Shown here: piece after piece, positions 11,175-11,824 of the stretch
How positions within the stretch are numbered: the stretch's first letter is position 1
Layout: every line of letters begins with the position of its first letter
NCBI GenBank assembly: GCA_027859205.1
Contig: JAQIBH010000127.1
Span: forward strand, 1 to 50,232
DNA length: 50,232 bases
Direction: 5' to 3'
From: Bacteroidales bacterium
GTDB lineage: Bacteria > Bacteroidota > Bacteroidia > Bacteroidales > UBA12077
The notes under the pieces: generated by a model
What the model saw: only the letters and a program-made list of their open reading frames with translations
Told to the model about the DNA's origin: nothing
The model's database searches: none
Program-made: the position numbers and the translations under genes

Positions 11175-11175
11175 T

Positions 11176-11222
11176 AAAAAATCCAAAATGGAATGATTTA
11201 TATGATTTAATATAATGTTTTA
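11176..11222 (+). pseudogene. Remnant 3' end of a GIY-YIG nuclease gene
   Basis: These 47 bases nearly duplicate 11565-11611, the last codons and downstream bases of the intact GIY-YIG gene; only about three bases differ. Translated in frame they give the same NPKWNDL-type tail and stop. The remnant begins directly after the helicase stop codon and leads into the same kind of hairpin element as the intact gene. Confidence 0.8.
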
Positions 11223-11290
11223 GATTCCTGCATGCGCAGGAATGACACATGGTATCAACCTTGATCGTCATTCCGGCGAATGCCGGAATC
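11223..11290. repeat. Double-hairpin palindromic element, copy 1
   Basis: The left hairpin pairs 11224-11231 (ATTCCTGC) with 11236-11243. The right hairpin pairs 11270-11277 (ATTCCGGC) with 11282-11289. The outer bases GATTCC...GGAATGAC and GTCATTCC...GGAATC make the two halves inverted repeats of each other around a 20-base spacer (11247-11266). It is GC-rich against the background, as in REP/MITE-like dispersed elements. Confidence 0.85.
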
Positions 11291-11322
11291 TTATTTTTAA
11301 ATAAAGTAGAATTTAAAACTAG

Positions 11323-11604
11323 ATGAAATATTATTTATACATCATAACAAATTATAAAAACACTGTTCTTTACTTAGGTGTTACTAATAATTTGAAGAGA
11401 AGAATAAAGGAACATAAAGACAGGACAAATGATGGTTTCTCCTCAAAATACAAGTGTAATAAATTAATTTGGTTCGAAGAATTTGAAGATATTCGTCTAG
11501 CTATTGACATGGAAAAGAAGATGAAAAAATGGAAAAGAAAGTATAAAGAAAACTTAATTAATGAAAAAAATCCAAAATGGAATGATTTAAATGAATTAAT
11601 ATAA
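11323..11604 (+). CDS. Small GIY-YIG endonuclease domain protein
   Basis: A 93-residue single-domain GIY-YIG nuclease of the short YhbQ/UPF0213-like type. The two signature strands are YYLYII (GIY position, residues 3-8) and VLYLGV (YIG position), followed by the catalytic-helix pattern NLKRRIKEH and the metal-binding Glu in the DMEKKMKKW region. The conserved tail NPKWNDL ends the protein. It is flanked on both sides by copies of the same double-hairpin element, and a duplicate of its 3' end lies upstream, so gene and repeats look like one cassette. Cellular role is unknown. Confidence 0.9.
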   Translation: MKYYLYIITNYKNTVLYLGVTNNLKRRIKEHKDRTNDGFSSKYKCNKLIWFEEFEDIRLAIDMEKKMKKWKRKYKENLINEKNPKWNDLNELI

Positions 11605-11611
11605 TGTTTTA

Positions 11612-11714
11612 GATTCCTGCATTACTCGCTTCGCTCTTGAGAAAAGTTCGCAGGAATGACAATCAAGGTTGATACTATTGCATAAGTAGTGTCATTCCGG
11701 CGAATGCCGGAATC
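11612..11714. repeat. Double-hairpin palindromic element, copy 2
   Basis: It has the same arms as copy 1: GATTCCTGC...GCAGGAATGAC (11612-11660) and GTCATTCCGGC...GCCGGAATC (11691-11714). The left hairpin loop is expanded to 29 bases. The central spacer (11661-11690) carries ATCAAGGTTGATAC, the reverse complement of 14 bases in the copy 1 spacer, so the spacer is inverted relative to the arms. Confidence 0.85.
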
Positions 11715-11824
11715 TTTTAATAATAAAAACTTATTGAAAAAAATAAAATAAATATTTAAAGGCTAACGTTTTTTAGCTAAAAGATTGATTTATAAAGATA
11801 TCTGCTATTGAATTATAACTATGG

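Follow-up and report, generated by a model that had tools for sequence, protein, structure and literature searches.

Why should the gene for a very small nuclease lie between repeated hairpins and just downstream of a copy of its own tail? The question is raised by an intergenic segment at positions 11175-11824 of a 50,232-nucleotide (nt) stretch of DNA from a Bacteroidales bacterium (contig JAQIBH010000127.1, positions 1-50,232), the whole of which is referred to here as the window. The gene, at 11323-11604 on the + strand, encodes a GIY-YIG nuclease of 93 amino acids (Pfam GIY-YIG, E 5.4e-16), with conserved catalytic-type positions and a predicted fold, and it is surrounded by hairpins of the repetitive extragenic palindrome (REP) type. 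The association of this GIY-YIG subfamily with such hairpins, and its specificity, are firm. Functional pairing of the nuclease and the hairpins is likely. We conclude from comparison of sequences that the locus represents a hairpin system of the REP type with a predicted GIY-YIG nuclease at its core, analogous but unrelated to the system of REPs and REP-associated tyrosine transposases (RAYTs).

The elements in the window are ordered as tail copy, hairpin dimer, gene and hairpin dimer, each dimer being made of two inverted hairpins. A preliminary description of the locus, made from the sequence alone, had reported a near-copy of about 47 nt of the gene's 3' end upstream of the intact gene. 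Alignment of 11176-11233 with 11565-11622 bore this out, with 97% identity over 58 nt, of which about 47 nt are the end of the gene (11176-11222, + strand) and the rest is the start of the following hairpin. The left dimer comprises hairpins at 11223-11246 (- strand, stem ATTCCTGC, head GTC at the right end) and 11267-11290 (+ strand, CGTC head, stem ATTCCGGC); the right dimer comprises hairpins at 11612-11660 (- strand) and 11691-11714 (+ strand, TGTC head, stem ATTCCGGC). The arm pairs ATTCCTGC/GCAGGAAT and ATTCCGGC/GCCGGAAT are present in both. A dimer thus follows both the tail copy and the gene, as had been described, but the two dimers are not the same: the first hairpin of the right copy holds a loop insert, and the spacers between the heads (11244-11269 and 11658-11693, heads included) are inverted relative to each other. 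The spacers are 91% complementary over 32 nt, with an inverted score of 15, a direct score of 6 and a maximum of 10 in 2000 shuffles.

When the window hairpins were folded as single-stranded DNA, the three compact ones formed stems of 8 bp closed by loops of 4 nt (z -4.1 to -5.0), whereas in the fourth (11613-11657) the loop measures 29 nt (z -1.0). The head is CGTC at 11266-11269 and TGTC in the other three hairpins, and the unpaired tails are CTA or CTT. The pattern ATTCCNGC..GCNGGAAT matched four places in the window, compared with none in 100 shuffles. Across the genome (3.6 Mb) it was found at 39 places, compared with one for the reversed control pattern; a broader hairpin pattern was found at 112 places, with one for its control. 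A conserved insert type of about 29 nt, GAACTTTTCTCATGAGCGAAGCGAGTAAT, was seen within the loops of several REP hairpins, namely window 11613-11657 and loci L002, L020 and L036.

Hairpins of this form belong to a class already in the literature. The available passages of Di Nocera et al. 2013 (PMC3733652) define CGTC-tagged REPs by an unpaired CGTC, TGTC or CCTC head, an 8-9 bp stem starting with AT, a loop of 4-5 nt and a tail fitting CCA, often in dimers. These passages place the class in five phyla, distinguish CGTC-1 to CGTC-4, include among them dRS3 of Neisseria (CGTC-1) and RPE-4 and RPE-6 of Rickettsia, and name Azospirillum lipoferum, Sinorhizobium meliloti and Neisseria as CGTC-positive. 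By the same passages, the superfamily is apparently without a dedicated transposase. Phage integration at the dRS3 repeats of Neisseria also appears in excerpts of the literature. The window hairpins fit this class in their CGTC or TGTC head, AT-starting 8-bp stem, 4-nt loop, occurrence as dimers and repetition in the genome. They differ in the tail, which is CTA or CTT rather than CCA, and in being tied here to a GIY-YIG gene. CCA tails were visible in several alphaproteobacterial loci of a plasmid collection. When hairpins near homologs were collected by stem length alone, GTC was the commonest flanking 3-mer (90 of 554 flanks), and TGG, the complement of the CCA tail, lay beside 44 of 554. 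The wider conserved feature is a GTC head and a stem usually starting with AT, not the exact letters of ATTCCTGC or ATTCCGGC. A suspected replication-strand bias of the hairpins was dropped, as the full listing of two genomes shows both orientations, often paired.

The preliminary description had further proposed to test whether the window's own hairpins flank this GIY-YIG family above chance. The enrichment was found, but for a GTC-headed hairpin whose stem varies with lineage and not for the exact ATTCCTGC/ATTCCGGC letters. Among 34 loci (five from the window's own genome and 29 from the phylum), 32 had a GTC-AT-NNN ... NNN'-AT-C hairpin within 250 bp, with varying stem letters. Homolog rows L043 and L056, which have internal stops, were removed ahead of later counts, and L005 was not entered there. 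A second set was selected by protein alone, as the best 80 of at least 543 relatives in named genomes, and carries 18 phylum labels. In this set, a hairpin with a GTC head was found no more than 250 bp away at 72 of 80 loci; the eight strict misses carry variants by eye (GTCACC, GTCGTT, GTCCCAG), L083 being the weakest. Hairpin density was 5.83 per kb near the gene versus 0.129 per kb beyond 1 kb, and random placements encountered a hairpin in 561 of 11973 cases. With no motif assumed, TGTCAT was the top 6-mer within 200 bp, present at 69 of 80 loci versus 13.3 expected.

Many of the hairpins lie near gene ends, as would be expected if they were ordinary terminators or gene-end structures paired with the gene incidentally. 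However, only 72 of 722 control open reading frames (ORFs) in the same contigs had a hairpin within 250 bp, compared with 72 of 80 homologs, and hairpins stood on both sides of the gene at 51 of 80 loci, the nearest ones oriented (+,-) at 34 of these 51. We therefore rejected the terminator reading, to which we attach virtually no credence.

The pairing of gene and hairpin extends to the plasmid collection, in which 30 records matched and 16 were examined, most identical strains being skipped; the near-copy pairs L356/L360 and L359/L361 are still included. Strict hairpins lay within 300 bp at 11 of the 16 loci, and the other five showed variant heads or stems by eye. In the Neisseria gonorrhoeae chromosome of this collection, six hairpins were found within 300 bp of an open-frame homolog. 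Two 50-kb background stretches of the same record held two and one strict hairpins, and none of 4000 random placements reached six. We take the hairpins beside this homolog to be of the dRS3 type. The GIY-YIG gene is paired with such hairpins in A. lipoferum 4B and S. meliloti as well, so that three taxa named as CGTC-positive hold the gene among such hairpins. The A. lipoferum 4B cassette (L347) is located between sufB and sufC; the flanks of the cassette in Shinella PSBB067 (L358), which are unannotated, resemble this sufB/sufC junction, and the hairpin stems of the two differ. In a Planktothrix plasmid (L350), the cassette and many hairpins have on one side a gene annotated as MmeI-type restriction-modification and on the other one annotated as the DISARM helicase DrmA.

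The hairpins do not accompany GIY-YIG genes in general. In hairpin-rich genomes, none of 13 distant GIY-YIG homologs had hairpins. Twelve relatives provided 30 PF01541 loci. Hairpins were found at six of the eight with a subfamily score above 100 bits, three of the eight being own-genome genes already in the 34-locus count, and at one of the remaining 22, where the match looks like chance and adjoins a frame of uvrC size. The two misses above 100 bits, L287 and L290, have no strict hairpin and show altered heads by eye. The fifth GIY-YIG gene of the window's own genome (32% identity) has no hairpins nearby, and a search of phages found no homolog at 1e-8. At L005 (1378-1785 on contig C200 of the own genome), a distant GIY-YIG gene without REP hairpins comes immediately after tRNA-Met, and the 3' end of this tRNA is repeated behind the gene, an arrangement like that of an integration site.

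The stem sequence varies with the protein. A tree was made of 78 proteins from the 80 loci (L112 and L146 left out), and on it the 5-nt stem changes 34 times, versus a mean of 43.8 for shuffled labels (minimum 37, n=300). Both this count and the comparison between phyla used 70 labelled rows, four phylum-less rows being set aside in the latter. The nearest protein from another phylum had the same 5-nt stem in 28 of 66 cases versus 10.3 expected, and within-phylum shuffles gave a mean of 15.6 and a maximum of 26 in 2000. For the 7-nt stem the result was weaker, with 13 of 66 versus 2.8 expected and a within-phylum mean of 6.0 (p 0.01). Because the tree was built quickly from few columns and leaves many forks unresolved, the claim that the stem follows the protein rests on the permutation test and not on the shape of the tree. 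Hairpins with ATTGC, for example, accompany related proteins of Nitrospirota, Planctomycetes, Ignavibacteria, Bacteroidota and an Oscillospiraceae genome, at forks that are weakly supported. The match also extends away from the gene: of the hairpins more than 1 kb distant, 48 of 118 had the 7-nt stem of the gene's own hairpins versus 6.8 expected (46 loci with both kinds). Such a match fits recognition of the hairpins by the nuclease.

Across 296 genomes of the phylum, those with a homolog (146) had a median of 19 hairpins and those without (150) a median of 4 (p 5e-19), and hairpin number was correlated with gene copy number (Spearman 0.55). This comparison is phylogeny-corrected only within two genera, g49 and g54. 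Within g49 the median was 30.5 hairpins with the gene versus 3.0 without it (p 6e-5). The preliminary description had named independent distribution of gene and hairpins as the observation that would speak against a link. The two are not independent, as judged from these genomes and from the stem match, but some hairpin-rich genomes lack a detected gene.

A search for solved relatives by sequence revealed UPF0213 proteins (1zg2, 1ywl) and UvrC as the closest. An AlphaFold2 model of the 93-residue protein (predicted local distance difference test score 96.5) was used for a structure search, which revealed similarity with UPF0213 (1zg2, E 1.1e-4) and then SLX1 (E 0.015-0.06). Small GIY-YIG proteins of the UPF0213 type and SLX1 are therefore the nearest solved relatives. 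The more distant GIY-YIG homologs, in the loci examined, have no hairpin association. Residues Y6, Y17, G19, R27, E64 and N83 are present in 66 of 66 aligned family sequences and H31 in 65 of 66; their catalytic roles are presumably those of the corresponding positions in I-TevI. All 66 proteins match PF01541, the only other family listed being T5orf172 (35 of 66), and the Pfam scan of these proteins gave no transposase family and no Y1 (HUH) match. No NCBIfam model matches the window gene, and its sole PADLOC match, to UzuA, was partial and weak (E 9e-5). The annotations of homologs read 'GIY-YIG nuclease family protein', 'hypothetical protein' or 'excinuclease ABC subunit C'. Selection on the protein is purifying: 22 gene pairs were compared, the ratio of nonsynonymous to synonymous substitution rates (dN/dS) was defined in 20, and 14 of the 20 fell at 0.02-0.10. 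One gene copy in a tandem region has an internal stop.

These properties could also be those of a structure-selective nuclease tamed by the host, which would resolve cruciforms or replication blocks, or restrain the hairpins, and be kept for regulation rather than for spread. A fold closest to UPF0213 and then to SLX1, presented in excerpts of the literature as a branch-cutting nuclease, would suit such a role, as would purifying selection and the correlation of gene number with hairpin number. We nevertheless consider it quite unlikely, considering the patchy presence of the gene (146 of 296 genomes), its tandem and dispersed copies and the empty sites in congeners described below. Gene and stem also vary together from one phylum to another, as would a mobile unit rather than a housekeeping gene.

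By our reading of the ORFs, the window cassette appears to be flanked by a helicase-like gene and a cation-transporter-like gene. Seven congeners were searched for this junction; G297 gave partial matches only and G296 none. In all five congeners with both flanks together on one contig, the junction is closed up to a few tens of nt and has no hairpin. The cassette of the window is therefore a lineage-specific gain, or it was lost in all five congeners. In another genome of the phylum (L162), the order is dimer, gene, dimer, gene, dimer, gene, dimer, with a unit spacing of 418-420 nt. The preliminary description had explained the window by repeated insertion or recombination of a gene-plus-repeat unit. 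Such units do occur in tandem, intact at L162, but the window is most simply read as a truncated version of an L162-like [gene + dimer] tandem, of which the tail copy at 11176-11222 would be the first unit. Cassettes were found both in tandem and as dispersed copies, the closest dispersed copies being 93-96% identical, and gene-less hairpin pairs are dispersed in genomes. At the site of one cassette copy in G163, where the copies are framed by the inverted repeats described below, a hairpin pair alone is present in three sister species, and a fourth lacks both pair and cassette.

Empty junctions in five congeners would also be expected of a homing-type endonuclease, which cuts cassette-less alleles and is copied in by repair, the hairpins being mere boundaries. 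GIY-YIG homing endonucleases such as I-TevI have the same catalytic fold, presumably in a mobile gene. However, no intron was seen here, the gene is flanked by hairpins, and 93 residues leave little room beyond the catalytic fold for a separate DNA-binding, target-recognition domain. In addition, the cassettes occupy unrelated sites, where the conserved surroundings are the hairpin. Homing therefore appears very improbable.

The reading we prefer is that of a hairpin-bounded selfish cassette in which the GIY-YIG protein would be the dedicated enzyme of the CGTC-tagged REPs, and we assign it a probability of roughly 0.6. Its unit would be a gene between GTC-headed hairpins whose tails mostly face the gene (GTCAT-hairpin-ATC, gene, GAT-hairpin-ATGAC), and gene-less hairpin pairs would be its non-autonomous counterpart, much like REPINs in relation to RAYT genes. 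The nuclease may recognise the hairpin as a folded strand or a cruciform and may nick or cut at or near its GTC base; subsequent repair or recombination would then duplicate, invert (compare the window spacer), expand or move hairpin-bounded segments. The stronger claim, that a lone GIY-YIG nuclease drives a class of mobile elements by cutting at the GTC base, spreads both the cassette and the gene-less dimers, and thereby explains the CGTC-tagged REPs, including dRS3, in about 18 phyla, is put forward tentatively, as we judge its chances to be somewhat short of even.

The analogy with RAYT transposases and their REPs, drawn in the preliminary description, is apt in anatomy, with a gene between inverted REPs and gene-less copies elsewhere. 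As in the RAYT/TnpA-REP system with GTAG REPs (REPtrons, REPINs), the gene stands between oppositely oriented REPs, gene-less dimers are dispersed, and the types of enzyme and repeat are matched. The enzymes differ, since RAYTs are tyrosine (HUH) transposases and the protein here is a GIY-YIG nuclease, and so do the heads, which are GTAG in RAYT REPs and GTC here.

Several observations weigh against the selfish-cassette reading. Joint transfer of gene and hairpins could also yield the match between stem and protein. The trend within genus g54 was not significant (p 0.07). Of 19 hairpin-rich gene-negative genomes, 14 have no match to the subfamily (A1) profile at 1e-5, so that hairpins can persist, and perhaps spread, without the gene; one gene-less single-contig genome holds 137 hairpins. 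Six of the 20 dN/dS values lie at 0.19-0.61, all of them from close copies with few differences. Finally, in g57, the single genus in which dispersed cassette copies were dissected, these copies lie between inverted repeats some 26 bp long, in many cases with similar flanks of 5 nt, and gene-less g57 elements share the same inverted-repeat ends. Because of these shared ends, the g57 copies were probably moved by another transposase, a separate and unrelated (putative) one. For the same reason, the g57 elements of about 520 nt with terminal inverted repeats (TIRs) were dropped as proof of GIY-YIG-driven transposition. Of the hairpin-rich genomes without a detected homolog, G002, G243, G121 and G249 could contain orphan repeats, have lost the gene or use another enzyme.

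The g57 elements raise the alternative that the gene is a passenger without action on the hairpins, the REPs being hot spots of insertion or recombination and the gene being carried by other transposases or by homologous recombination. Cassette copies of this genus lie inside elements with TGTAGATGT ends, and 21 such elements, some with the gene and some lacking it, were compared. In 15 of them the end directly adjoins a REP head, in 14 the two 5-nt flanks match with no more than one mismatch, and in nine both features coincide; three have heads on either side and seem to be recombinant. Insertion sequences (ISs) that target REPs have been published, as passages of PMC1525189 describe, and the g57 cassette within a TIR element resembles ISs or miniature inverted-repeat transposable elements that insert into REPs. 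The case differs in that the hairpin is the common denominator across phyla, the TIR ends having been examined in g57 only. A passenger would also not be expected to show an association that holds under 18 phylum labels and is confined, in the loci examined, to one GIY-YIG subfamily. Moreover, between phyla the stem type tracks the protein more closely than in within-phylum shuffles, genomes of g49 with the gene have more hairpins than those without, and the protein is under purifying selection. We therefore regard the passenger explanation as unlikely. Short g57 elements with TGTAGATGTYAGRTAATTC ends (L178, L185, L194, L253-L271) tend to lie at the GTC|ATNNN head of REP hairpins, and one version of the TGTAGATGTYAGRTAATTC-ended element bears the GIY-YIG cassette.

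A selfish cassette with a dedicated nuclease would supply the CGTC-tagged REPs with a candidate enzyme, from a nuclease subfamily that is co-located and co-varies with the hairpins. If true, this would hint at what a large group of small, vaguely annotated GIY-YIG proteins may do. With a protein of 93 residues and a hairpin of 24 nt, the question lends itself to direct testing. Among the matches listed in a literature search, whose coverage left out most subscription papers and all preprints, no link of GIY-YIG proteins to REP hairpins was found. Both PMC12306157 (RepRanger 2025) and PMC6006769 (2018 HUH survey) cite the 2013 paper, and their available passages contain no GIY-YIG/REP link.

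Some minor features of the repeats were also observed. In the own genome, REP dimers at L020 and L032-L035 are seemingly nested in a longer element, itself dispersed, whose inverted ends centre on TCAATGTCGTTTAGTTAA. An Rfam scan of the hairpins gave matches below threshold only, among them weak ones to the Francisella small RNA FtrB over window positions 11193-11344 and 11669-11734. The FtrB family may in part be a REP-type repeat.
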